Origin: Diplonema papillatum
Taxonomy: Eukaryota; Euglenozoa; Diplonemea; Diplonemida; Diplonemidae
Direction of reading: 5' to 3'
NCBI GenBank assembly: GCA_030068145.1
Contig: JAPJBO010000048.1
Location: forward strand, 456,381 to 520,380
Length of the DNA stretch: 64,000 nucleotides
The translations under genes were made by a program, and so were the position numbers. Positions 18,692 through 64,000 of the stretch are shown one piece after another. Below the pieces are notes generated by a model. That model made no database searches, had not been told where the DNA came from, and saw only the letters and a program-made list of their open reading frames with translations. How positions within the stretch are numbered: the stretch's first letter is position 1; every line of letters starts with the position of its first letter.

Positions 18692-19126
18692 GTACACAGC
18701 TCTTTTTCTTCGTATAAGCACCCGTGTGTGTGGTCCTTCCAAGATGGATTGTGTCTGCGCTCTCTCTCTCTCCCTTAAGGTTGCCGCCCGAGGGAACCGG
18801 CTGTGAGCCGAAACTCGGCGCCGGTCTCTCCGGACTGCACCAGGAGAGAACTTCGCGGCGGATCACAAAGCACCCGCCCTGCACGAGGTACGCGCCCAAG
18901 ACCCGTGCACGGCTACCGTAGCACCCTCCGTGTTTGCACCTTCCTCGGATGCTACGGTCGGGAAGGGGCTTCAAAGTAGTTGGGAAAACACGTTCCCCTT
19001 CCCCGCGTTCTGCGTGTGGGGTTACCAGGGACCCGGGCAACTGCCGCAGCAGCCGCAGAAACGTCCTTCGCCCTTGGCTCACTTTCGGGAGTCACCTACC
19101 AGTGTGTTCCTGGTTGTTGCCAGTTG

Positions 19127-20585
19127 TCAGCGCGATAGCGATGACAGCGAGAACACATATAGGTGGGCGGGGAGAGGCCCTGGGACTGCTAAGACGGGAC
19201 AACCACACCCTTTGACCTGTTTTGATGTGTTCTCTCGGAAAGTCAGCGCGATAGCGATGACAGCGAGAACACATATAGGTGGGTGGGGAGAGGCCCTGGG
19301 ACTGCTAAGACGGGACAACCACACCCATTGACTTGTTTTGATGTGTTCTCTCGGAAAGTCAGCGCGATAGCGATGACAGCGAGAACACATATAGGTGGGT
19401 GGGGAGAGGCCCTGGGACTGCTAAGACGGGACAACCACACCCTTTGACTTGTTTTGATGTGTTCTCTCGGAAAGTCAGCGCGATAGCGATGACAGCGAGA
19501 ACACATATAGGTGGGTGGGGAGAGGCCCTGGGACTGCTAAGACGGGACAACCACACCCTTTGACTTGTTTTGATGTGTTCTCTCGGAAAGTCAGCGCGAT
19601 AGCGATGACAGCGAGAACACATATAGGTGGGTGGGGAGAGGCCCTGGGACTGCTAAGACGGGACAACCACACCCTTTGACTTGTTATGATGTGTTCTCTC
19701 GGAAAGTCAGCGCGATAGCGATGACAGCGAGAACACATATAGGTGGGTGGGGAGAGGCCCTGGGACTGCTAAGACGGGACAACCACACCCTTTGACTTGT
19801 TATGATGTGTTCTCTCGGAAAGTCAGCGCGATAGCGATGACAGCGAGAACACATATAGGTGGGTGGGGAGAGGCCCTGGGACTGCTAAGACGGGACAACC
19901 ACACCCTTTGACTTGTTATGATGTGTTCTCTCGGAAAGTCAGCGCGATAGCGATGACAGCGAGAACACATATAGGTGGGTGGGGAGAGGCCCTGGGACTG
20001 CTAAGACGGGACAACCACACCCTTTGACTTGTTTTGATGTGTTCTCTCGGAAAGTCAGCGCGATAGCGATGACAGCGAGAACACATATAGGTGGGTGGGG
20101 AGAGGCCCTGGGACTGCTAAGACGGGACAACCACACCCTTTGACTTGTTTTGATGTGTTCTCTCGGAAAGTCAGCGCGATAGCGATGACAGCGAGAACAC
20201 ATATAGGTGGGTGGGGAGAGGCCCTGGGACTGCTAAGACGGGACAACCACACCCTTTGACTTGTTTTGATGTGTTCTCTCGGAAAGTCAGCGCGATAGCG
20301 ATGACAGCGAGAACACATATAGGTGGGTGGGGAGAGGCCCTGGGACTGCTAAGACGGGACAACCACACCCTTTGACTTGTTATGATGTGTTCTCTCGGAA
20401 AGTCAGCGCGATAGCGATGACAGCGAGAACACATAAAGGTGGGTGGGGAGAGGCCCTGGGACTGCTAAGACGGGACAACCACACCCTTTGACTTGTTTTG
20501 ATGTGTTCTCTCGGAAAGTCAGCGCGATAGCGATGACAACGAGAACACACAAACGTGACAGAAGGCCCTGGGCTGCTAAGACGTG
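19127..20585. repeat. 116-bp minisatellite, about 12.5 copies
   Basis: Units starting tcagcgcgatagcgatgaca recur at exact 116-base steps from 19127 to 20519, and a partial, more divergent unit ends near 20585. Units are almost identical. A diagnostic site (gttttgatg or gttatgatg) reads T,T,T,T,A,A,A,T,T,T,A,T along the array. The recurring open frame on the minus strand comes from the repeat; 116 is not a multiple of 3, so it is not a repeat protein. Confidence 0.98.
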
Positions 20586-38690: not shown

Positions 38691-40030
38691 AGTCGACCAG
38701 CAGTCTGAGAGATTAGATTTTCAAGCGACGCTCAACTGCTGTCCCGCGAATGCGTTCGACGACCTGACGATTCTGCAATTCCCATTGGCTATCGCGTCTG
38801 GCCGCGGTCTTCATCGTTCCCAGGGCCAAGACGTCCACCGATGAGTGCAATTGGTTCCATCAACCGCTGTGTGCATGAGCCGAGGGGAACAGTCATCTTG
38901 CCTTTCCGATTGCTCGGATTTTCTTGACTTCCTTCATGATCGTGTTCGAGTCCCCCAAGAGCGGCACCGCATCATAGTAGATAGGGCAGAAGGAATCGCA
39001 TTGAAGACGAGGCACGTGGCCACTTGAAGGGAGTCATAGTTCCTCCCGTCGTCTACCCGTGCTCAAGAAAGCGGCACCGTCCCGCTCAAGATCTACGATC
39101 CGTCGCACCCACGTTCCTTTGCTTCGTAGAACCGAGGGCGACCGCCCTCTCCTCGACCCCCTCTTCTTCCTGTATAAACCTCTCGTTCCTTTTTTCCGTA
39201 CTATTTTTTCACCATAGATAGATGGGAATTCCCTGCTTTTTCTTCGGCGCCTGTGACCTTGGGGGTTGCCGTAGCTTAAAGAAAACAAACGCAGGCACAG
39301 CGTGTTGTGGTGGTCGTAGACCACGAATTCCTAGTTTAACCTCCTGGGGCTACTTCACTGTAGCACCCTAGGTGTACTGTACCGCTGCGCGTGCTGCGCT
39401 CTTTCTCCGACGCGAGAGTTTCCGACCGCCTCTTGTGCCCTCTCCTAGCACACCCGTTTGTGTTTATGTTTGACAACTGTTGATTGCCTTCGTCTGTTGT
39501 ATCGAAACCGTAGTATCCAGCGGACCTTGCTTCGTTTTCGGCCGTTCATTCTTTCTCCAGCAGTGGCGCAGACACCTCTAGCATCGTGAATCATCGAAGG
39601 AAGCTCGCAAGCTTCCGAGGAGGAATGCGCCCTGGGACTATGTAGGATGGAAACGTTCCGTTTCGGTTGCCTTCTGTTTGGCGGGTGCATGGCAATACCG
39701 TTTCCTTTCAGCTCAGCCCTAAGGGACGAGAGGTGAGTTGCCAGCTTGTTTTAGTCTTTGGGTGACCTTCGGCCACAGGAATGCGAAAGATAGGCGACGC
39801 GTCGATTCCAGGGCTACTGAACGCGCAGAACCAACTTGACACATTGGCGTCAAAACTGACTGAAAAGAGAGCAGTGATATCTGCTCATTTTGCTCGAGAC
39901 GTTCCACCGTGACAATAACTAAAAATGAGGCACTCACGGCTCGCAGTCCACGCTCTCGTCGTATTCCGGCAACAAACCTGCTCAGAGCTGCCCAAAAAAA
40001 TCTGTAGCTAACACCCTGGTTTAACTCTGA
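38691..40030. other. intergenic
   Basis: No gene is recognised. Confidence 0.45.
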
Positions 40031-43797: not shown

Positions 43798-46700
43798 TCA
43801 TATGTTGCACCATTCCTCAGCGTGCGAGACAGGGGCCCGGGTCCCCATACGTGTCCACACTCCTCCATGCTCCTCATCGCCAGTCCAACTGGCCCCAGGT
43901 ATAGGGTGACGACAGCGTTTTACGCGGCGTGCGAGAGGTTGCCACGACTGCTGCCTCTGATGGAGAGCATCCGGGGAAGATACGCATGCTAGGCATGTAC
44001 CGGGATCCGTCAGGTGGCCCTTCTCCTGAAAGTTTAGGACCATCTCCCTCGCGCGCTTCGGGTTGGATCCACCCCAGATCAGTCCCATCACCGACGTCGT
44101 CAGCCGTTTCATCGCCACCTTCGATACCGGCGCGAAAGAGCAGCCTGACAGCGCCGCCGGTAGCACATTCGACTGCACAATCCGGACCCGCTTTTCGTAC
44201 CGGAACGGCGCATGGCGGAGGCCTTCCGCCAGGGCAGCCGCCTTCTCCACCCTCTCCGAGTCGGACCTTTCCGTCCTATTCTTCGCCGTCGAGACTAGGA
44301 CCCCGAGGCACTTGACGGATTTGCTAAACCGCAGCAGCGCATCCACGCTGTGGAGTTTGAGAGTCGACTGATGCCTACGTCTCGTCGAGAACGCGACCGT
44401 CTTCTGGAGGTTTAGCTCCATCCCGGTGAGTGTGCAGAACTCGTCTACTACGTCCACTCCCTTTTGCAGGGCGGCCTCCGACAGCCTGGACAGCAGTGTG
44501 GCGTCGTCCGCGTATGACTTTGGACTCACACCCTCCGCTTCTTTCTTGACCGCTTTCATCACTACCGACAGCAGGGCATTGATGAGTATGACGGATACAG
44601 GGCACCCTTGAAGGATACCGTTGGTCACACTGAACTCCCTGCCCACCCCTAATGGTAGCTTGAAGCGTCTCGCGAGCAGTCTGTAGATAGCCCTCAGCGG
44701 CTTGAGAACCCGATTGTGCAATCCTAAGTCCTCGGCTAAGCGCAGTACTATCTCTCGCGGGACCATGTCGAAGCATTTCCGGAAGTCCAGCGCCACACCG
44801 TAGAGCGGCTCCCCGTCTAACAAGGCGTCCTCCATCTCGAGCCCAATTTCCATCAAGACGTCCTCGATCCGGTGACCCGGTCGAAAGCCTTTCTGTCCTT
44901 CTTCGATCCATTCCTCTTGCCACAGAACTATGTCCGCCAGCCTGCGGCAGGCCCATAAGCGGTACACGGCGGATGTGACGGTTATCGGTCTTGTGTGCAG
45001 CGGGTCTTGACTCTCATCCTTCGGCACCATCGACACCAGCGCAGTTGTCATGCTTGCCGGCCAGTCTCCAGTTGCTTCGACCAGGTTCATGACGTCTGCA
45101 AGTGCATTCAGCAGGGGGAGCGGCAACTCCCGCAGTTCAGCCATACGCCAGCCATCCACCCCTGACGCGCTTTTCTTCGGCTTCTTCCTCAGCAGAATTC
45201 GCAGCTCCTCCCCCGTGATTGTTCCGGCTTCCATCATATGTGGGCCGATGTGATCCTGGAACCGATCCCGAAACGGCTCGTACTCCGGCTCTGGCCCGTC
45301 CTTGTACTTACGCAGGATAGGGTCCCACGCAGTGTTCAGCACCTCGTCCATCTCGTCAACATTTGCAGTCACTCCCGCCCCCTTTCGCAACACCCCCGAC
45401 GGCTCAGCGCGTCCGGCGCAGATGGTTGTCAGACATCGTCTGCTCGCATCGGCCCTCTCGTTCAGCTTGTCTCGGTATTTCGTAAACCTGGCCGCCGATC
45501 CTTCCTTTCCGAGCCTGCTCGTCTCTTCCCGCAATGCCGTGAGAAGCTGCTTCGCCTCCTCATGATCCGGGAATCCTTCTGTCCCTTGGCCATCTTTCAT
45601 GCACGCCTGTGCCAGCCGCCTGCTGTTCTGCCAGCAACGGGATACCTCATGCGGAACTGCCTCCGGCCCGCGCCGTTGCGCAAGGTAGCTGCAGATGCGT
45701 TCCATCCTGTGGATGGCCTTCCGGAGCCGTAGCTGTCTGCTGTTCGCCGCCCCCGACCCGTCGCTCGCAGTGCTTGCCGTGATGCAGACTCTTTTAGGTG
45801 ACGTCTTTATCCCCCGTCCTGTACTTCTTCCCCTTTCTTCCGCAGGGATTCCGAAGGCATCCTGCAAGTACTGCTCACTGACTCGTGACCACTCGAGCCA
45901 GGCCTCTTCCACTCGCTGTGCTGCCAGCCGTTCTGCGAAATCGGAGTTGGCCAGTCTCTGTACGGCTTCCCTGTAAGCTTCTGTGTCCGAGAGGCCCCAC
46001 TTGGGTCCCCCCTCCGTAGAGATTTCCCGCGGTACTTTAAATCGCCACACGATTTGGCGCAGCGCCGCAATGTCCAGGGTCATTGTCACGAGCCGGTGTC
46101 CCGGCACGTTCACCGCGGTGGTGACGCATTGGCGGAAAGCTCCCGTCGTTATTCGGTTGAGGAGTATGCGGTCGATCCTCGTGCCCGATGTCCGGGCGTT
46201 GGTAAAGGTCGGTGGTGGTGGTGTGTCACCGGTACGCGCATGGTGCAGTTCCGCTGCGTCGGACCATCCATTCCTTAGTGCCTTCCGCAGTACAGGGGAC
46301 CGGTCTTCTTCCGTGTTCAGGTCACCCATCACCATTATGGGGACGTCACCGAGGCTATCCGCCGCTGCGAAGAGGATCTTCTCCAGCATGTCCTCACGCT
46401 CCTCGCTCTCCGCCCTCCCGTTTCCGGAAGGGCAGTAGACATTGAACACGTGCACGAACGTGTTGCCGGCCCCTGTTGCTACTACCGTATGGCTCACTCG
46501 GTCCGGGGACCGTATTGCTGCGTGCGAGAGCGCCGTCATCGTATCGTACGCCGGTATCGGTCTCAGTACTAGAGTGGAGAGCCCTCCGTTCGCGGCGTTC
46601 ATCGTCGAGCGACTACCGGAGTTCCTACAGAGTCTTCCGGGTGGTGGCAGACCCCAGTGGCAGCACCATTTCCGCAGGTATTCCTCCGCCTGCACCCGTT

Positions 46701-47022
46701 TGCACGGAAGGAGTGTCACCTCCTGGCAGCAGAGAAGATCCGCTTCCACCGCGTCGGCCGCTGGGAGATACTGTAGTAGGTTGGTTACGTTTAACGTCGC
46801 GAACCTCATCTCCGCGCGGCCGGGACCAGGGTTTTGTTCGACGTCCCCCGCGGTTATCAGCCGCTGTCTTGCTGATTCTTTGATTGATTGTAGAGTTCTT
46901 TGGTGATGAAGCAAAAGTGTCCGTGGCGCGGGGCTGGACTGATGTTGGGAGGGTGCAGTGGATGCCTGAGGGCTGGGCGGGGGGGGTATGGGAGCTTCTT
47001 GCGGGGTGTCCCGGCCTTGCAA
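43798..47022 (-). CDS. LINE protein, 2A + AP endonuclease + reverse transcriptase part
   Basis: The frame has 1074 codons. A Pro/Ser-rich leader is followed by ITAGDVEQNPGP, which fits the 2A consensus D-[VI]-E-x-N-P-G-P that makes ribosomes skip a peptide bond. MRFATLNV follows at once and starts the endonuclease domain, with LLCCQE, VMGDLNTEED, GTRIDRILLN and PGHRLV as the AP-endonuclease motifs. The reverse transcriptase has ALDFRKCFDMV (motif A), GILQGCPVSVILINALL (B) and SYADDATLL (C), all intact. The last 60 or so codons are wrong-frame sequence created by the inversion. The listed start is a TTG, so the real initiation codon is uncertain. Confidence 0.92.
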   Translation of the reverse strand: MQGRDTPQEAPIPPPPSPQASTAPSQHQSSPAPRTLLLHHQRTLQSIKESARQRLITAGDVEQNPGPGRAEMRFATLNVTNLLQYLPAADAVEADLLCCQEVTLLPCKRVQAEEYLRKWCCHWGLPPPGRLCRNSGSRSTMNAANGGLSTLVLRPIPAYDTMTALSHAAIRSPDRVSHTVVATGAGNTFVHVFNVYCPSGNGRAESEEREDMLEKILFAAADSLGDVPIMVMGDLNTEEDRSPVLRKALRNGWSDAAELHHARTGDTPPPPTFTNARTSGTRIDRILLNRITTGAFRQCVTTAVNVPGHRLVTMTLDIAALRQIVWRFKVPREISTEGGPKWGLSDTEAYREAVQRLANSDFAERLAAQRVEEAWLEWSRVSEQYLQDAFGIPAEERGRSTGRGIKTSPKRVCITASTASDGSGAANSRQLRLRKAIHRMERICSYLAQRRGPEAVPHEVSRCWQNSRRLAQACMKDGQGTEGFPDHEEAKQLLTALREETSRLGKEGSAARFTKYRDKLNERADASRRCLTTICAGRAEPSGVLRKGAGVTANVDEMDEVLNTAWDPILRKYKDGPEPEYEPFRDRFQDHIGPHMMEAGTITGEELRILLRKKPKKSASGVDGWRMAELRELPLPLLNALADVMNLVEATGDWPASMTTALVSMVPKDESQDPLHTRPITVTSAVYRLWACRRLADIVLWQEEWIEEGQKGFRPGHRIEDVLMEIGLEMEDALLDGEPLYGVALDFRKCFDMVPREIVLRLAEDLGLHNRVLKPLRAIYRLLARRFKLPLGVGREFSVTNGILQGCPVSVILINALLSVVMKAVKKEAEGVSPKSYADDATLLSRLSEAALQKGVDVVDEFCTLTGMELNLQKTVAFSTRRRHQSTLKLHSVDALLRFSKSVKCLGVLVSTAKNRTERSDSERVEKAAALAEGLRHAPFRYEKRVRIVQSNVLPAALSGCSFAPVSKVAMKRLTTSVMGLIWGGSNPKRAREMVLNFQEKGHLTDPGTCLACVSSPDALHQRQQSWQPLARRVKRCRHPIPGASWTGDEEHGGVWTRMGTRAPVSHAEEWCNI
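43901..43985. other. 85-bp inverted segment inside LINE copy 1
   Basis: The plus strand here reads the same as the sense strand of copy 2 at 55029-55113 (atagggtgac to gaagatacgc), although copy 1 lies on the minus strand. The flanks on both sides (tgcctagcat and tggggccagttgg) are in the expected orientation. About 14 bases beside the inversion are missing relative to copy 2. Confidence 0.95.
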
Positions 47023-52206: not shown

Positions 52207-52399
52207 GAAATACTTGATAAGGCTGCCACTTGCAAAAGATCAAAGGAGGTAAATGTGCTGTAGCCCACACGAAACACAGGTAAATCTGGGTTTGGTGGCG
52301 GGCGTAAGCGTTCGATAAAAAATACCCACTCTGTAGTTGCATTGTTTCTCCCCCTCTAGCCTCTCGAAATGAGCACAAGGCAGTCCCTCTCGAGTATTT
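52207..52399 (+). mobile_element. MITE-like repeat R2, copy 4
   Basis: The copy is complete and is followed at once by ataagcacctgctttgttgg, the start of another unit, suggesting a head-to-tail pair of which the second is lost. Confidence 0.88.
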
Positions 52400-52473
52400 T
52401 ATAAGCACCTGCTTTGTTGGAAATGGATGAAAGCGCTTACGCGTCCACCATCCGCATACGGGTCGACCACCGA

Positions 52474-52727
52474 TGTTACTGTGAACAAACCAGCGTGCCC
52501 AAAGCAGGCGTTCGCCGTGAATGATAAAGCATGGAATAACAAGGGATTGATTCTCTCGACTCTTTTTGTTGGTCTCTTAACCCGAGAAGGAAGAATCAAA
52601 ACGAAGTTCTTAGCGGTTCTCTTTTGAGTTTCGTCTAAGGCCTCGTTGCGCGGGATCAATAGGGACTGCCGGGGTCGTACGTACTCCTACGTCAGAGGTG
52701 AAATTCTTAGATCGTAGAAAGACGAAC
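52474..52727 (+). rRNA. 18S rRNA gene fragment (V4-V5 region), likely pseudogene
   Basis: Conserved small-subunit strings appear in the correct order: cccaaagcaggcg, aaagcatggaataacaag, tttttgttggtctc, aatagggactgccggggtcg, gtcagaggtgaaattcttag and aagacgaacttctgcgaaa. This covers the stretch from about helix 22-23 into the V5 region. The fragment begins and ends abruptly; the right end abuts the half fold-back at 52738. The rest of the rRNA gene is absent, so it cannot be functional here. It is the most useful sequence for placing the organism. Confidence 0.88.
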
Positions 52728-52737
52728 TTCTGCGAAA

Positions 52738-52860
52738 TACCTGGGGACAATGTTGTCTTGCGGACTGAAGCTGGTGAAGCCGCTGCCCGCCCTTTATTTT
52801 TGCCGTGGAGGTTCAGGTGACGCAGGCTTTACCTGGCAGCTCCACCTGGGGTGACAGAAG
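52738..52860 (+). repeat. half copy of the 8449-9008 fold-back element
   Basis: ggggacaatgttgtcttgcg and tttttgccgtggaggttcag match the left arm of that element. The right arm is missing. Confidence 0.85.
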
Positions 52861-53378: not shown

Positions 53379-56300
53379 CATGCTAATCCATGTGATTCAT
53401 GTACTTAAAAGAACTCAATGCTTAGCAAAGGAAAGAAGGATTCCCGGATCATGAGGAGGCGAAGCAGCTTCTCACGGCATTGCGGGAAGAGACGAGCAGG
53501 CTCGGAAAGGAAGGATCGGCGGCCAGGTTTACGAAATACCGAGACAAGCTGAACGAGAGGGCCGATGCGAGCAGACGATGTCTGACAACCATCTGCGCCG
53601 GACGCGCTGAGCCGTCGGGGGTGTTGCGAAAGGGGGCGGGAGTGACTGCAAATGTTGACGAGATGGACGAGGTGCTGAACACTGCGTGGGACCCTATCCT
53701 GCGCAAGTACAAGGACGGGCCAGAGCCGGAGTACGAGCCGTTTCGGGATCGGTTCCGGGATCACATCGGCCCACATATGATGGAAGCCGGAACAATCACG
53801 GGGGAGGAGCTGCGAATTCTGCTGAGGAAGAAGCCGAAGAAAAGCGCGTCAGGGGTGGATGGCTGGCGTATGGCTGAACTGCGGGAGTTGCCGCTCCCCC
53901 TGCTGAATGCACTTGCAGACGTCATGAACCTGGTCGAAGCAACTGGAGACTGGCCGGCAAGCATGACAACTGCGCTGGTGTCGATGGTGCCGAAGGATGA
54001 GAGTCAAGACCCGCTGCACACAAGACCGATAACCGTCACATCCGCCGTGTACCGCTTATGGGCCTGCCGCAGGCTGGCGGACATAGTTCTGTGGCAAGAG
54101 GAATGGATCGAAGAAGGACAGAAAGGCTTTCGACCGGGTCACCGGATCGAGGACGTCTTGATGGAAATTGGGCTCGAGATGGAGGACGCCTTGTTAGACG
54201 GGGAGCCGCTCTACGGTGTGGCGCTGGACTTCCGGAAATGCTTCGACATGGTCCCGCGAGAGATAGTACTGCGCTTAGCCGAGGACTTAGGATTGCACAA
54301 TCGGGTTCTCAAGCCGCTGAGGGCTATCTACAGACTGCTCGCGAGACGCTTCAAGCTACCATTAGGGGTGGGCAGGGAGTTCAGTGTGACCAACGGTATC
54401 CTTCAAGGGTGCCCTGTATCCGTCATACTCATCAATGCCCTGCTGTCGGTAGTGATGAAAGCGGTCAAGAAAGAAGCGGGGGGTGTGAGTCCAAAGTCAT
54501 ACGCGGACGACGCCACACTGCTGTCCAGGCTGTCGGAGGCCGCCCTGCAAAAGGGAGTGGACGTAGTAGACGAGTTCTGCACACTCACCGGGATGGAGCT
54601 AAACCTCCAGAAGACGGTCGCGTTCTCGACGAGACGTAGGCATCAGTCGACTCTCAAACTCCGCAGCGTGGATGCGCTGCTGCGGTTTAGCAAATCCGTC
54701 AAGTGCCTCGGGGTCCTAGTCTCGACGGCGAAGAATAGGACGGAAAGGTCCGACTCGGAGAGGGTGGAGAAGGCGGCTGCCCTGGCGGAAGGCCTCCGCC
54801 ATGCGCCGTTCCGGTACGAAAAGCGGGTCCGGATTGTGCAGTCGAATGTGCTACCGGCGGCGCTGTCAGGCTGCTCTTTCGCGCCGGTATCGAAGGTGGC
54901 GATGAAACGGCTGACGACGTCGGTGATGGGACTGATCTGGGGTGGATCCAACCCGAAGCGCGCGAGGGAGATGGTCCTAAACTTTCAGGAGAAGGGCCAC
55001 CTGACGGATCCCGGTACATGCCTAGCATATAGGGTGACGACAGCGTTTTACGCGGCGTGCGAGAGGTTGCCACGACTGCTGCCTCTGATGGAGAGCATCC
55101 GGGGAAGATACGCCGAGGGGGACCTACCCCTGGGGCCAGTTGGACTGGCGATGAGGAGCATGGAGGAGTGTGGACACGTATGGGGACCCGGGCCCCTGTC
55201 TCGCACGCTGAGGAATGGTGCAACATATGACCCGTTAACCTCGGCACCTTCGAAGAGGGGACATGAAGTTAGGGCGGACTTGAGGGCGAAGACGTGGTCC
55301 CGACTGGTGGCGAGGCGGCCGGGATTTGAGGGCATACAGAGAGCCGACCTGGAGCGGACGAACTCCTTCTGGAGGATGCGTGAATGTCCCGCGCACACCG
55401 CGAGGCTTATACGTGTAGCGTTGGCGGGGGGGGTGAACACGGCTGAGTACACGTCGCGGATGAGGCAGGCCGGAGCTGAGCCGCAGGCGCCCAGCTGCAA
55501 GCACTGTGGAAGCGGCGACACCGAGGACGAGAAACACGTATTCTGGGACTGCGGAGCGTACTCGCACATACGGCGACGAGAGGCACATGCCGAGCTGATG
55601 GCAGCCAACCGGGCCGACTGGCCCAGATGCACGCTGGAACACGGTGTGGTAGTACCCGAGAATGCCCAATTCTCGAGGCGGCTCCAGGAGATGATGGCTG
55701 AAATCCTTGCGGAACGGGCTGGGCTCGAAGCACGTGGCTGGGTGGCCAGGAACCCCACGACCCCCTGGTCGAGAGCGAATGCGATGCCTGCCGAGAAATT
55801 TGACCACCCCTTCGCGCGGATTGCCCCGGCATGGACGTGGGAGCGGAACAAGACCTGGGGACTACCGACGTTTTATGCGTTGGTAGCGTGGCTGTCGGAC
55901 ATGCAATGGACCGAGAACGGGCAGGCGTCAATGCTGGAGCTTGCGATCGACTTTGAACTCTTCTCGGGCCTCAGCATGCCGCTGCACGGGAATGCGCCGA
56001 AGGGGGTGAGAGAACGGGGAAACGTCCTGCGCTGCATGATGAGCGCGTTGGACAAGCTGGCGGCACAGCAAGGGCTGGGAAGCTGCATGAGAGGAGAGAG
56101 GGTGTGCCCGACGACGTCGCTGTCGTTCATGGGCATCACGGGGATATCGGGTATACGGCCCAGGCCACGCTTTCGCGAGGCACACACGGGGACGATACTT
56201 GAGGAACAAGTGAAAGGAAGCGATGTAGGGACGCAGTGCCCGACGTACCCTGACTGGACGATCGGGAGAGCGGCGAGGTGGGCCCTGCCTGCCCCACCAC

Positions 56301-57242
56301 AACTGCACCCAGACCCCGTGCATATGCCGGGTGTCGGTATAGAGAAGGCACTCGTCACGTGCGCGACCCATCACAAAGGGAAGTGTGAGGCGTGCAGAGC
56401 ACTCGTCCGAAGGGACGTTCCCACGGTAGAGATGTGCTGCCGGCACCATCACCACGCGAACGATGGGCAGCCGATCGCGGTGTGCACAGAGCACAGCACG
56501 ACGAAGTGCGGCGAGTGCAAGACGGCGGCGGCGTGTTGCCGCAGCGGGCATCATGCCTGCCGCACGCATGGCAGAGGAACCTGCCAAGAGTGCAAAAGGC
56601 TCCCTACGCTGACGCAGAGGCGACCGGCGGCATGTTGCAGCCGCGGCCACCACCAGTCCAACAAGCCGAACGTCCAGTCAACCCCCGGACGCAACAAGAA
56701 GAAGAGGCCCTCCTCACCCACCCAGGTGGGTGTACAACGGGAAACGCCATTAGGAAAGCGAGCGGCGCGAGCGCCGCTCGCGGCAACGAAAAAGGAGACG
56801 GCGACGACCGGACGGGCGACCAAGAGGCCGCCACCAACGCCAGGAACCAGCGAACGACCAGCGCTGAAGAAGAGGGTGCTCGGCACCCCGAAGGAAGGCC
56901 CGATCGCCGGCCGCAAGCGGAAGAAGACGAAGGCGACCACCCCCGAGTCAGGGGTGCATCGAAGGAAGAAGAAGGTTCCGAGGGCAAGCAGCTCTCAGAA
57001 ACGACCGGGGACCACGGGCACGCCAATGCCCTCGAAAGTGAAAAACGGGCACACGTGCCCGCCCTCGTACTCGCCGACTCAGTCTCTGGAATCGCAAGAA
57101 AGCCAAACCCCGCTAGCGCCACAAATGCTCGACCTTGACGACGCGATGGCAGGTGACGACGTCATCCGATAACCTGACTTTCAAGGCAGTGCATGCTAAT
57201 CCACGTGGTTCATGTACTTAAAAGAACTCAATGCTTAGCAAA
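53379..57242 (+). mobile_element. LINE copy 2, 5'-truncated
   Basis: This copy starts inside the region between the endonuclease and the reverse transcriptase and continues to the same 3' end as copy 1. A 52-base sequence (catgctaatcc to atgcttagcaaa) stands both immediately before it (53379-53430) and at its 3' end (57191-57242). Since the same sequence ends copy 1, the first instance is best read as the tail of an earlier insertion. A long target duplication is the alternative. Confidence 0.9.
53432..57172 (+). CDS. LINE protein, 5'-truncated, open to its stop
   Basis: The frame runs more than 1200 codons without interruption from the truncation point to TAA-flanked TGA-free sequence ending ...DDVIR. 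It contains the whole reverse transcriptase (ALDFRKCFDMV, GILQGCPVSVILINALL, SYADDATLL), the CCHC knuckle, all three Cys/His modules and the basic tail. It lacks the 2A motif and endonuclease. Differences from copy 1 are few, such as EAGGVSP for EAEGVSP and one fewer Arg-Ala-Ala repeat, so both copies derive from a recently active source. This copy gives the correct reading frame across the inversion and G-run in copy 1. There is no initiation codon of its own. Confidence 0.9.
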   Translation, partial: KEGFPDHEEAKQLLTALREETSRLGKEGSAARFTKYRDKLNERADASRRCLTTICAGRAEPSGVLRKGAGVTANVDEMDEVLNTAWDPILRKYKDGPEPEYEPFRDRFRDHIGPHMMEAGTITGEELRILLRKKPKKSASGVDGWRMAELRELPLPLLNALADVMNLVEATGDWPASMTTALVSMVPKDESQDPLHTRPITVTSAVYRLWACRRLADIVLWQEEWIEEGQKGFRPGHRIEDVLMEIGLEMEDALLDGEPLYGVALDFRKCFDMVPREIVLRLAEDLGLHNRVLKPLRAIYRLLARRFKLPLGVGREFSVTNGILQGCPVSVILINALLSVVMKAVKKEAGGVSPKSYADDATLLSRLSEAALQKGVDVVDEFCTLTGMELNLQKTVAFSTRRRHQSTLKLRSVDALLRFSKSVKCLGVLVSTAKNRTERSDSERVEKAAALAEGLRHAPFRYEKRVRIVQSNVLPAALSGCSFAPVSKVAMKRLTTSVMGLIWGGSNPKRAREMVLNFQEKGHLTDPGTCLAYRVTTAFYAACERLPRLLPLMESIRGRYAEGDLPLGPVGLAMRSMEECGHVWGPGPLSRTLRNGATYDPLTSAPSKRGHEVRADLRAKTWSRLVARRPGFEGIQRADLERTNSFWRMRECPAHTARLIRVALAGGVNTAEYTSRMRQAGAEPQAPSCKHCGSGDTEDEKHVFWDCGAYSHIRRREAHAELMAANRADWPRCTLEHGVVVPENAQFSRRLQEMMAEILAERAGLEARGWVARNPTTPWSRANAMPAEKFDHPFARIAPAWTWERNKTWGLPTFYALVAWLSDMQWTENGQASMLELAIDFELFSGLSMPLHGNAPKGVRERGNVLRCMMSALDKLAAQQGLGSCMRGERVCPTTSLSFMGITGISGIRPRPRFREAHTGTILEEQVKGSDVGTQCPTYPDWTIGRAARWALPAPPQLHPDPVHMPGVGIEKALVTCATHHKGKCEACRALVRRDVPTVEMCCRHHHHANDGQPIAVCTEHSTTKCGECKTAAACCRSGHHACRTHGRGTCQECKRLPTLTQRRPAACCSRGHHQSNKPNVQSTPGRNKKKRPSSPTQVGVQRETPLGKRAARAPLAATKKETATTGRATKRPPPTPGTSERPALKKRVLGTPKEGPIAGRKRKKTKATTPESGVHRRKKKVPRASSSQKRPGTTGTPMPSKVKNGHTCPPSYSPTQSLESQESQTPLAPQMLDLDDAMAGDDVIR

Positions 57243-58253: not shown

Positions 58254-59039
58254 GTATGGCCTTTCATTTCGCGTCTTTTACCCCTTTCCAATGATGCTAG
58301 CATCTGCCTTAAAGCCCTGCACTTAAACGCGCGTGAGGGCCCAAGACTCAATTCATAGCGAATTTCTTCTCGGTGTCGGTCACATCAGTTACAAACATGG
58401 CCAGCCGTACTTAAATTGTGTAATATTATGTCTGCGTCCCTTTTACTATTAAAGGAACCTTTACGACAATGATCACCCCGGAGACTTTAACACCCCGGTC
58501 TAAAAACGGTCGAAAGACACCAATCCGCACGCCTTTATGAATCGTCGTATGCACTCCAATAAACGCTTGACCACGCACTCACACGCACATTACGGGGTAG
58601 CAGTCGGCGGGTCTGGATCAACCCAATCTGGATCAATAAAAACTGGATCAAAAAAACTGGATCAAAAAAAACTGGATCAATAAAAACTGATCAACTTTCC
58701 CAGTCAAAAAACTGGATCAAACTTTGATCCAGTTTTTTTCAGGTGGGTACACCTGGATTAAAAAAAACTGGATCAATAAAAACTGGATCAACTTTTTTGA
58801 TCCAGTTTTTTCCAGGTGGGTACACCTGGATCAAAAAAAACTGGACCAAAAAAAAAACTGGACCAAAAAATACTGGACCAAAAAATACTGGACCAAAAAA
58901 AACTGGACCAAAAAAAACTGGACCAAAAAAAAATGGACCAAAAAAAAAAACTGGACCAAAAATACTGGACCAAAAAAAACTGGATCAATCTGGTCGAAAA
59001 AACTGGATCAGTTTTTTTGATCAGTTTCTGGCATAGATG

Positions 59040-59290
59040 GCCGTTATATAACGTTATATAACGTTATATAACGTTGTTCCCGGAGTTATTTGTTACCCCC
59101 CCCCTAAATCCAGAAAAACCGTTATTGACCGTTATAAAACCGTTATTTGCCATTTTTGGTCGAAAAATAACGTTATTTGACCGTTATAACGTTATATAAC
59201 GTTATATAACGTTATAATAACGGTATAATAACGTTATATAACGTTATAATAACGTTATATAACGTTATATAACGTTATATAACGGTTTTT
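59040..59290. repeat. palindromic ataacgttat array, left
   Basis: Tandem ttatataacg units, each self-complementary, are partly interrupted at 59086-59180. The same array is at 60875-60940. Confidence 0.95.
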
Positions 59291-59314
59291 TACCAGTCCA
59301 TGGGAGGTCACACT

Positions 59315-60830
59315 GTCCTCCAGATTTTGGTCATTTTTGGCCATTTTTGCCACATTTTCCAGATTTTGGCCAATTTTGGTTATTTTTGCCAATTTTTCCA
59401 GATTTTGGTCAATGTTGACCAGTTTTGCCGTGTTTTCCAGATTTTGGCCCATTTTGGCCGTTTTTACTGATTTGGCCAGGATTGGCCATTTTTGCCATGT
59501 TTTTCAAAAATTTGGCTATTTTTGCCGATTTTTCCAGGTTTTGGTCATTTATGCCCTGCCCCTCACCAGAGCTTCTTGTCTGAGTTTCTTAAACCCGCAC
59601 AAGCTCGAACAGGCAGTCCGTGCGCGGAAAAAAAAAAAGGTCGAAAGACACCAATCTGTACGCCCATTCGGGATCGTCGGAAACACAAAAACACGTGTAC
59701 CGCCCCACCCGCTTCGATTTCAGCCACACTAGTCTTTCCAAAGGGAATATCGACTATGCCTGCGAAAAGCTCCCCGAAGGTCCAGCCGAAGCCGAAGGCT
59801 CAACCTAAAGCTCAGCCGAAAGCTCAGCCGAAGACCCCAGGTACACAGCGCAAACGGCCTCGCGCCGAAAGTACGGATAGCAACAGCAGCAGCAGCAGCG
59901 CCTCGGTTGCAAAGGCGCGACGCGGAAGGAAGAAGGTGGCGGAAACGCTGCGCGTCGAGGCCGGCTGGCTGGGTTCTACGGGAAGCGCCAGCTGTGACTG
60001 CTCGACTTTGCATGTCTCGTGCTCATCATGCACCCATATTTGGTACTGGGACCTTGTCTGACTGGCATAGTACGCAACGGTCTGCCGAGTGGACAAGCTT
60101 GGACAAGTTGGACTCCAGTGGCCGGATCATGCTGGTGACATCTGCTGCCTCACGAAGGACACTGCAAACGACCGTTACGGGCCACCGACTGAGGGACACG
60201 CGCCGGAAACCCAAAACTGCAGACATCCACATCCCAAGAACAACATCGCACAGTGAAAGAGTCATGTGAATCCGGAAGGATCGCGTTTGTCGCGCTTGGG
60301 TGGAAGTCCGCAAGAAAATAAGTAAAAGAGAAAAAGCTCTGGGGAGGGGCTATACGGACCCCTGAGGACCGGTTACTACGAATTCTTTTCGGACCAGGGT
60401 TTGTTTCCGAACAGTTTTTGTGACCGGGATCCAAAAATCGGCAAAAGTCTGGAAAAATTGGCAAAAATGGCCGAAATTGACCAAAATCTGGAAAATCGGG
60501 AAATCTGGAAAAATCGGAAAAAAATGGCCGAAATTGACTGATCTGGATAAATCGGCCAGAGTGGCCAAAATCTCAAAATTGTCCAAAATCTTGAAAAATC
60601 GGCAAAAATGGCCGAAATCTGGAAACATCGGCAAAGATTGCCGAAATCTGGAAAAGATCGGCAAAATGGCCAAAACCTGAAAAAATCGGCAAAAGTCTGG
60701 AAAAATTGGCTAAGATTGACCAAAATCTGGCAAAAATGGCCAAAATCGGAAAAAATGGCCGAAATGGACCAAAATGAGGAAAAAATGCCAAAAATCTGGA
60801 AACATGGCCAAAATCGGAAAAATTCTAAAA
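59315..60830. repeat. inverted arms of attttggcca repeats
   Basis: The left arm (59315-59560) consists of attttggccatttttgcc-like units. The right arm (60425-60830) is their complement (aaaatggccaaaatctgg). The arms enclose 860 bases with the Lys/Pro-rich frame. Confidence 0.92.
59756..60061 (+). CDS. small basic protein or captured gene fragment
   Basis: The frame starts with ATG and has 101 codons. It begins MPAKSSPKVQPKPK, repeats AQPK (a 12-bp repeat), then has an Arg/Lys and Ser-rich stretch with RKRPRAESTD and KARRGRKK, resembling a histone H1-like or nuclear tail. The last 30 residues look random. A donor-like CCCCAG|GTACAC at 59836-59843 would instead make it a first exon of a host gene. 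Its position in the loop of an inverted-repeat element suggests capture of a host fragment. Confidence 0.35.
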   Translation: MPAKSSPKVQPKPKAQPKAQPKAQPKTPGTQRKRPRAESTDSNSSSSSASVAKARRGRKKVAETLRVEAGWLGSTGSASCDCSTLHVSCSSCTHIWYWDLV

Positions 60831-61414
60831 ACCGTTATTTGCGTTATTTTTTCCGTTATTTTGCGTTTTCGACCGTTATATAACGTTATATAACGTTATA
60901 TAACGTTATCACCGTTATAACGTTATATAACGTTATCAACCGGCCATCTATGTTCTGGACCAGACAGTTGTTAGAATGTGGGGTGAGGTGTTGGGCTGGT
61001 GTGTGTGAGTAGCAAAAACGGTGGTTAAAAAGACACAAGGTTTTGACCCTGCATGGTAGGTGTGAGTGGTGTGATTGGGGTGGGTGTGAATGGGTGGTGT
61101 GGGTATGAGTGGGGTGGGTGAGTGAGTGAGGTGGGTGTGAGTGTGAGTGAGGTGGGGAGGTGATGTGAGTGGGTGTGAATGGGTTGTGGGAGGGAGGTGG
61201 TGAGTGTGGGTGGGTGGGTGGGTTGTCTTTTTATAACGCTCCCGCGGGGCCGATGGACCCCAAAAAAAAATTTTGGCAAAAAAAAAAATGCTCAACTTCC
61301 GCCAAAATTACCGCAGAGTTTGTTCCAAAATTTTAAAATTCAAAAAACCCATTTTTTTTCCGGAAACAAATTTTTGGCCATTTCCAAAAAGACACAAGGT
61401 TCTGACCCTGCATG

Positions 61415-62200
61415 CTAAACCAGGTTTCTGTCTTAGGCCACACTTGCCAACACACTTGTGCTACACCCACTCACACCCACCTCACTCAACCCACCCACCC
61501 ACACCACCCATTAACACCACTCACCCATCTCACTCAACCCACCCACCTCACTTCACACCACTCACACCCACCTCACTCACACCACCTGGATCAAAAAGTT
61601 GATCCAGTTTTTTTGGCCATATTGATCCAGTTTTTATTGATCCAGATTGGGTTGATCCTGGTTGAGTGTGGTGCCAACACAGGTCAAACTGGTTTCTGTC
61701 TTGATCTTCCCTTGGGAAGAGACACAGGCTAAACCAGGTTTCTGTCTTAGGCCACACTTGCCAACACACTTGTGCTACACCCACTCACACCCACCTCACT
61801 CAACCCACCCACCCACACCACCCATTAACACCACTCACCCATCTCACTCAACCCACCCACCTCACTTCACACCACTCACACCCACCTCACTCACACCACC
61901 TGGATCAAAAAGTTGATCCAGTTTTTTTGGCGATATTGATCCAGTTTTTATTGATCCAGATTGGGTTGATCCTGGTTGAGTGTGGTGCCAACACAGGTCA
62001 AACTGGTTTCTGTCTTGATCTTCCCTTGGGAAGAGACACAGGCTAAACCAGGTTTCTGTCTTAGGCCACACTTGCCAACACACTTGTGCTACACCCACTC
62101 ACACCCACCTCACTCAACCCACCCACCCACACCACCCATTAACACCACTCACCCATCTCACTCAACCCACCCACCTCATTTCACACCACTCACACCCACC
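61415..62200. repeat. 314-bp tandem repeat, about 2.5 copies
   Basis: ctaaaccaggtttctgtctt starts units at 61415, 61729 and 62043. Each contains a cccaccca-rich stretch and a gatccag block that is itself fold-back. Units are almost identical. Confidence 0.95.
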
Positions 62201-63165
62201 TCACTCACACCACACCACCCACCTCACCCACCCCACTCTCACCCACACCAGCCACTCACACCCACCTCACTCACCCATACCACCCATTCACACCCACCCC
62301 AATCACCACACCCACCACATCCACACCACCTCACCCCACATCCACACCACCACCTCACTCACCCTCACTGAGCCCACCCACACACACAACACCAACTGGA
62401 CCAAAAACTGATTCAGTTTTTTTTGATCCAGTTTTTTTGACCATATTGATCCAGTTTTTTTTGATCCAGTTTTTATTGATCCAGTTTTTTTTGATCCAGG
62501 CATACCCACCTGAAAAAAACTGGATCAAAGTTTGATCCAGGTGTACCCACCTGAAAAAAACTGGATCAACTTTTCTGGTCGAAAAACTGGATCAATAAAA
62601 ACTGGATCAAAAAGTTGATCCAGTTTTTTTGGCCATATTGATCCAGTTTTTATTAATCCAGATTGGGTTGGTCCAGACCCGCCTAGCAGTCGTCAGCATT
62701 GTAGAATGCTTGGCGACAAGTAGTTCGCGCCACTTCCCCGTGCGAGCGAGCCTCGGAACAGGACTCAAAACTGTGACCCAAGTGGCGACTGCCGACCATG
62801 ACGGGGCTTGCACCAGGAGTTTGTACAGCTAGTCAGGCCAAGCTCATTGCACAGACACATCCTCGGGTGAGATGTGCCGCCTGTGTGAAGACACTCAGCT
62901 GTTGCCCGGGACCGAAAACCCCGTGCAGCTAACACCGCAAGATGAAAACAGAAGTCTTGAGCCGAGTGCCGGATGGCGAAGCTGACAGCCTCCCACGCTC
63001 TATCCGTCCCTCGAAGGATCCCGCCCCACCCACCCCTTCGGAGAGGAGTCACAGGACCCAAAAGCAGCGTGGAAACTCAAAGCCGACTGGTGAAAGTGAC
63101 AAGTGGGCTATACTTCGATTCAGTCGTCACCCACTCAAAGCCCTGAACTTAAATCACACGCACAG

Positions 63166-63387: not shown

Positions 63388-64000
<613 letters not shown>

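Follow-up and report, generated by a model that had tools for sequence, protein, structure and literature searches.

A 64,000-nucleotide stretch of the Diplonema papillatum genome (contig JAPJBO010000048.1, positions 456,381 to 520,380, forward strand), here called the window, contains a palindromic repeat block of about 4.1 kb towards its right-hand end. This block is very probably a non-autonomous element of a divergent family of cut-and-paste DNA transposons of the Merlin/IS1595 type, which was moved in trans and then entered by a second element. The block has its ends in common with copies carrying an intact transposase, and insertions of the family duplicate 8 bp. An earlier reading of the same letters (the original prediction) had described a single nested fold-back element. 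The genome searched was a 271-Mb assembly of 2910 contigs, which are referred to below by C numbers; the window lies on C48.

Boundaries and symmetry of the outer element

The outer element occupies 58606-62683 (4078 bases) and its ends are exact. As originally proposed, it is bounded by a perfect 8-bp duplication, TAGCAGTC, at 58598-58605 and 62684-62691. The inverted terminal repeats, previously given as 45 bases with two mismatches, were found to be 46 bp long, with the number of mismatches unchanged (n=2). Significant inverted matches covered 63.6% of the 4078 bases; the corresponding share was 0-2.3% in 10 same-length stretches from the rest of the window, and 0 after shuffling in two-base blocks (20 shuffles). 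Together with the exact ends, these values indicate that the outer element is real and not due to chance. The interior is therefore palindromic far beyond the controls, as had been claimed, but two elements contribute to this symmetry. The components of the outer element were as follows.

58598..58605, no strand: left target duplication TAGCAGTC, identical to 62684-62691
58606..58651, plus strand: left terminal inverted repeat, beginning GGCGGGTCTGGATCAACCC; 46 bp, 2 mismatches against the right end; recurs at many places in the genome
58606..59031, plus strand: left arm with ctggatcaa/ctggaccaa arrays; tandem repeats with the words CTGGATCAA (10 times), CTGGACCAA (8 times) and TTGATCCAG (twice)
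60959..62683, plus strand: right arm with GT/CA-rich arrays; tandem repeats with TTGATCCAG words (14 times); matches to other copies
61224..61419, no strand: dispersed repeat of ~196 bp in the right arm; one to several copies in C1270, C261, C1115 and C390 (blastn)
61414..62213, plus strand: 314-bp unit, 2.5 copies at 99%, right side only (Tandem Repeats Finder)
62638..62683, minus strand: right terminal inverted repeat, pairing with the left end
62684..62691, no strand: right target duplication TAGCAGTC, identical to the left one

The two arms were unequal, the right measuring 1725 bp and the left 426 bp. Both the GT/CA-rich arrays and the 314-bp unit were present in the right arm and absent from the left, and the latter indicates that one arm can grow alone. 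Tandem growth of the repeats, another part of the original prediction, was thus borne out on one side only. No frame of the window matched a profile built from the transposases of other copies, in agreement with the earlier statement that the element carries none.

The outer family across the genome

With the window included, at least 25 places matched the left end, each with an identity of no less than 96% and an aligned length of no less than 89 of the 95 bases; for the right end, at least 26 places reached this identity across 134 bases. For pairing, 20 stretches from 19 contigs were fetched, chosen partly for having both ends listed near each other; single-end matches beyond these stretches are not among the paired copies. 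Complete copies were present on 9 of the 19 fetched contigs, with sizes from 512 bp (C743) to 10.1 kb (C1275). No facing pair of ends, with up to 5 mismatches allowed, was found on C1639, C1159, C1230, C679, C253, C1115, C2028, C550, C529 or C390, and these were left out of the duplication count.

The ends of the family, GGCGGGTCT, begin with GG. When the window copy was counted with those of the nine contigs, perfect 8-bp duplications were seen in nine of the ten complete copies, and all nine were different (TAGCAGTC, AAAGGCGT, ACTACACT, AAAAATTA, TTGACCTT, GTCACACT, ACAGCGGG, AACGAAAA and CTTGGAAA). One of these nine is the copy in C743, which shows that a length of 512 bp can be enough in cis.

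Unoccupied homologous sites, proposed earlier as a check on the boundaries, were identified for the copies in C941, C584, C1479 and C261, where the joined flanks plus one duplication matched uninterrupted sequence elsewhere (for C261, the left-side match was 17 bp only). Among the loci fetched, no such site was found for C743, C9, C1275 or C1270, and the joined flanks of the window copy gave no spanning match. Matches for C957 were discounted, as they fell within simple repeats on the same contig as the copy itself. The copy in C941, which bears a transposase, sits within a dispersed repeat, and 126 matches spanning its joined flanks were obtained among the loci fetched.

The copy in C9 exhibited an additional right-type end (L045:5201), 21 bases past the transposase frame, and was therefore taken to be a compound copy. 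The 10.1-kb copy in C1275 was considered as a possible autonomous copy and dropped; by eye, its 634- and 1909-codon frames look like those of a long interspersed nuclear element (LINE) inserted into the element. A Pfam scan of the 634-codon frame gave only chance matches.

Over the first 100 bp, the left arms of different copies had a mean identity of 96.0% (45 pairs) and the right arms 99.6% (45 pairs). Left and right arms were 79.8% identical within one element (n=10) and equally 79.8% identical between elements (n=90), which indicates that no process maintains the likeness between the arms of a given element over this length.

The inner element, a second and separate family

The inner mirror represents a later insertion of an independent element into the outer one. 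It extends over 59032-60952, has its own inverted ends (CATAGATGGCCG) and has TTCTGG, a duplication of 6 bp, on either side (59026-59031 and 60953-60958). The mirrored ataacgttat and attttggcca arrays and the central ~860 bases are all part of it; the mirror noticed in the original prediction is thus present, but it belongs to this separate element.

59026..59031, no strand: left TTCTGG duplication of the inner element, identical to 60953-60958
59032..60952, plus strand: inner element of a high-copy family, with ends CATAGATGGCCG and the ataacgttat and attttggcca arrays; own ends, 6-bp duplications and an empty site in other outer copies
59756..60061, plus strand: small basic frame in the inner core, conserved; other copies have ~109 bp extra at 59962/59963 and a different C-terminus
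60953..60958, no strand: right TTCTGG duplication, identical to the left one

Each genome search with the inner family scored 40 candidates only. Among the matches listed, at least 39 other places matched the inner core at 100% over 478 bp, so that the family appears very homogeneous, and at least 39 other places matched the left part, most of these matches beginning at ~59032. A perfect 6-bp duplication was found in 10 of the 12 inner copies having both flanks read (window included); of the exceptions, C6 had no 6-bp duplication and C198 had a 22-bp repeat instead, one base from the left end. When the inner element and one TTCTGG were removed, the joined sequence was uninterrupted in the outer copies of C941 (122/146 aligned columns) and C9 (121/148 aligned columns).

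A version of the small basic frame taken from another copy had no match in a Pfam search. By eye, the inner-family copy in C124 seems to be placed in the start of an 18S ribosomal RNA (rRNA) gene. Also by eye, a 26-base stretch beginning ggtcgaaagacaccaatc was seen both at ~58508-58533, in the candidate host intron, and at ~59639-59664, in the inner core, with 2 differences.

The transposase of the fuller copies

The full-length relatives with a transposase that the original prediction had envisaged were found in C941 and C9, whose intact frames (662 and 635 amino acids, respectively; 99% identical) lie between the same ends as those of the window element. A genome search with the transposase listed 70 match rows, 65 of them without an internal stop and some representing parts of one gene; apart from C9, the relatives among the matches listed were 36-48% identical. 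In an alignment of 11 sequences, including nine fetched relatives, the motifs occurred in the order CxxC...WxC, [LV]E.DEFS.G, DGA..Y, WVNHG and AGTQ..DG.W..LK. The third acid was D in all 11, giving a D-D-D triad, with spacings of 104 and 107 residues in C941 (D164, D268 and D375). The ratio of nonsynonymous to synonymous substitution rates (dN/dS) was 0.11-0.14 in three computable pairs, with dS > 1; of 36 pairs, values were shown only for the 4 above 50% identity, one of which had saturated dS. These ratios point to purifying selection.

A second subfamily is represented by C310, where the encoded transposase shares 43% identity with that of C941, the ends are GGCAGGTCT and the duplication, AGTACTCG, is again 8 bp long. 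This subfamily gives independent support to the Merlin/IS1595 assignment. For the unoccupied site of C310, two weak matches (72%) were found on a single contig.

Relation of the transposase to IS1595

Profile-profile comparison relates the predicted transposase to bacterial IS1595 transposases and, by way of these, to eukaryotic Merlin. The comparison set consisted of 55 IS1595 proteins collected from viral contigs, against which hhalign returned a probability of 95.1, P=3.1e-8 and a score of 66.8 over 191 columns. Zinc ribbon was paired with zinc ribbon, first D with first D, second D with second D and VNH with VNH. The scores of 30 column-shuffled controls did not exceed 24.2, and an IS256 control (19 proteins) gave P=0.64. 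The catalytic half alone matched IS1595 at P=1.9e-5, and the N-terminal half alone matched the zinc-ribbon region at P=2.9e-5 over 33 columns.

A number of observations count against this assignment. The third-acid block after the second insertion, TQLADGQWGRLK with TNTIESFWALLK, aligned at P=0.012 only, a plain hidden Markov model of the IS1595 set scored no higher than 5.2 bits on these transposases, and the transposase profile was built from 9 sequences, whose diversity was low (Neff 2.4). A genome search with PF12762 (DDE_Tnp_IS1595) gave no match even with E-values as high as 10 allowed, and the transposase was not recognised in Pfam, NCBIfam or PDB sequence searches. Zn_ribbon_IS1595 (PF12760) matched 3 of the 11 members weakly (best E 0.041), and unrelated models reached similar or better single-member E-values. 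With regard to the copies themselves, C1270 is a complete copy without a target duplication, an exception to the 8-bp duplications that the original prediction had expected of all copies. In the second subfamily, C1719 has both ends and no duplication, and a recognisable left end was not found in C357. No movement of the element was observed.

Searches of PHROGs with the transposase gave weak matches only, for the most part to families whose function is unknown. Plasmids, viral contigs and genome contigs yielded no relative, the two scans of viral contigs and the one of genome contigs having been prefiltered on a few short peptide patterns.

Proposed history and alternative explanations

Both the GG ends and the 8-bp length of the duplications are in keeping with Merlin. 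In the proposed history, the transposase of the fuller copies would bind the terminal ~250 bp (the inverted ends plus the ctggatcaa subterminal repeats), excise the element and reinsert it with an 8-bp staggered cut, and the window copy would have been moved in trans in this manner. An element of the high-copy inner family entered the outer left arm and duplicated TTCTGG, the insertion adding a second mirrored layer. The arrays of the arms may lengthen by ordinary tandem duplication, each side separately and without any symmetry-keeping process.

It is improbable that the element belongs to another superfamily with 8-bp duplications (hAT, P or the Zisupton-like group) and that the likeness to IS1595 is spurious. 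Those groups make 8-bp duplications too, so the length is not a Merlin-only feature, and the curated IS1595 models found no match. However, the zinc ribbon, the first two D and VNH align in order with IS1595 at the P-value given above, the ends begin with GG, and the shuffled and IS256 controls were negative (profiles of hAT, P and Zisupton were not among the controls).

Slightly less credible still is the explanation closest to the original prediction, a single foldback (FB)-like element, unrelated to Merlin, whose inverted arms grew by slippage or hairpin-templated copying with their symmetry kept. Arms composed of inverted short tandem repeats, together with the tandem 314-bp unit, would suit such an origin. 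Nevertheless, the inner mirror proved to be a later insertion from a different family, which has a duplication and an empty site of its own, the arms of one element were no more alike than those of different elements, and transposase-bearing copies exist between the same ends; growth by slippage with inverted symmetry retained is contradicted by the first two of these findings. Finally, a chance, simple-repeat or assembly artefact, which the low-complexity arrays and a 612-base C run at 63389-64000 might suggest, has a negligible probability and is refuted: the same ends recur, each time with another 8-bp duplication, in nine of the ten complete copies, and four copies have unoccupied sites.

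The original prediction had named no described family, whereas the ends and duplication length of this non-autonomous element, and the transposase of its family, suggest a divergent variant within the Merlin/IS1595 group. For a broader proposal the chances seem evenly balanced: diplonemids may carry a deep, expanded IS1595-derived clade that kept the bacterial zinc ribbon, altered its triad to D-D-D, acquired two long insertions in the catalytic domain, and is either sister to Merlin or the result of a separate transfer of IS1595 to eukaryotes. Such a clade would be invisible to current protein models and the source of many repeat-armed non-autonomous elements of this genome. In a large protist genome, palindromic elements with repeat arms are now tied to a concrete transposase family that was missed by the curated models tried. 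A Merlin-like clade with a zinc ribbon is also relevant to whether eukaryotes acquired Merlin in one event or in several. The DNA transposons named in the available excerpt of the D. papillatum genome paper are TATE, MULE and Helitron, Merlin not being among them (PMC10161547), and a search of one library of papers found none on Merlin transposons in diplonemids. On zinc-bearing Merlin or IS1595 transposases of eukaryotes, the papers found there from 2021 onwards were PMC8101967 and PMC10045372.

Genomic context

The outer element lies probably in a host intron, as open frames are in phase on both sides of a GT-AG interval.

58254..63165, plus strand: candidate host intron (GT-AG) of a Met/Gly/Asn-rich gene, containing the element; open frames on both sides, in phase

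As excerpted, the genome paper places transposable elements within introns as well in D. papillatum, whose genome is given as ~280 Mb (PMC10161547). Elements resembling miniature inverted-repeat transposable elements have been proposed, in the excerpt available, as the source of noncanonical introns in diplonemids (PMC12621601). The outer family makes 8-bp duplications and has one copy in a probable intron.

In the genome as a whole, a diplonemid spliced-leader sequence matched 345 + 305 places with at most 2 mismatches, compared with 0 for the backward control. Elsewhere in the window, a glycosyl hydrolase 28 (polygalacturonase-like) gene was noted, which is consistent with the D. papillatum genome as published (PMC10161547), together with two LINE-like reverse-transcriptase frames (RVT_1) at 43798-47022 (minus strand) and 53480-57172 (plus strand) and, at 19126-20549, a tandem array of 12.3 copies of a 116-bp unit at 99% (Tandem Repeats Finder). 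The 612-base run at 63389-64000, at the window end, is 98% C and may be genuine or an assembly artefact. Rfam matches to 5.8S rRNA (38726-38849) and to a small-subunit rRNA fragment (52331-52770) lie apart from each other and are perhaps dispersed rRNA pieces. Dispersed pieces of 28S rRNA have been reported for D. papillatum.

Comparison with known systems

The diplonemid transposase resembles those of IS1595 in having a zinc ribbon followed by a catalytic domain, in the same order, and each half matches independently (in profile-profile comparison, not with curated models). The motifs VE.DE, TD, VNH and T....[ED]..W..LK are shared, and the spacing from the third acid to W/LK is equal. The IS1595 proteins differ in being ~300-330 amino acids long, in having E as the third acid in 26 of the 27 sequences measured, and in their median triad spacings of 70 and 35, compared with 104 and 107 in C941.

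The foldback elements Tetris (PMC4079207) and Galileo (PMC4168063) are likewise described, in the excerpts available, as having long inverted arms of short tandem repeats. Galileo, however, is assigned there to the P superfamily (PMC4168063), in contrast to the IS1595/Merlin-like transposase found here. Nor were the symmetric arms of one element, as in FB-like elements, seen in the window, where the inner mirror is a separate insertion and the arms are unlike.

Merlin was compared by its published description, as excerpted from PMC8101967, and bacterial IS1595 was used for the protein comparison. In that description, Merlin elements have GG ends, inverted ends of 24-462 bp, 8-9-bp duplications and an IS1595-like transposase, the described Merlins being without the N-terminal zinc ribbon, and the IS1595 family makes 8-bp duplications (PMC8101967). 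The outer family agrees with Merlin in its 5'-GG ends, as does the second subfamily with its GGCAGGTCT ends, and in its 8-bp duplications (9 of 10 copies, and C310); the terminal inverted repeats of the outer element also fall within the range described. The diplonemid transposase differs from that of Merlin in having the IS1595-like N-terminal zinc ribbon, in its D-D-D rather than D-D-E triad, and in its longer catalytic spacings with long insertions, PF12762 giving no match. Of the Merlins in that excerpt, the divergent Sy.m_F1 of Symbiodinium microadriaticum, compared by description only, belongs to another lineage and has a conserved DDE, but its transposase domain is likewise poorly recognised, and it likewise has complex tandem repeats at one end that are duplicated in the opposite orientation (PMC8101967).

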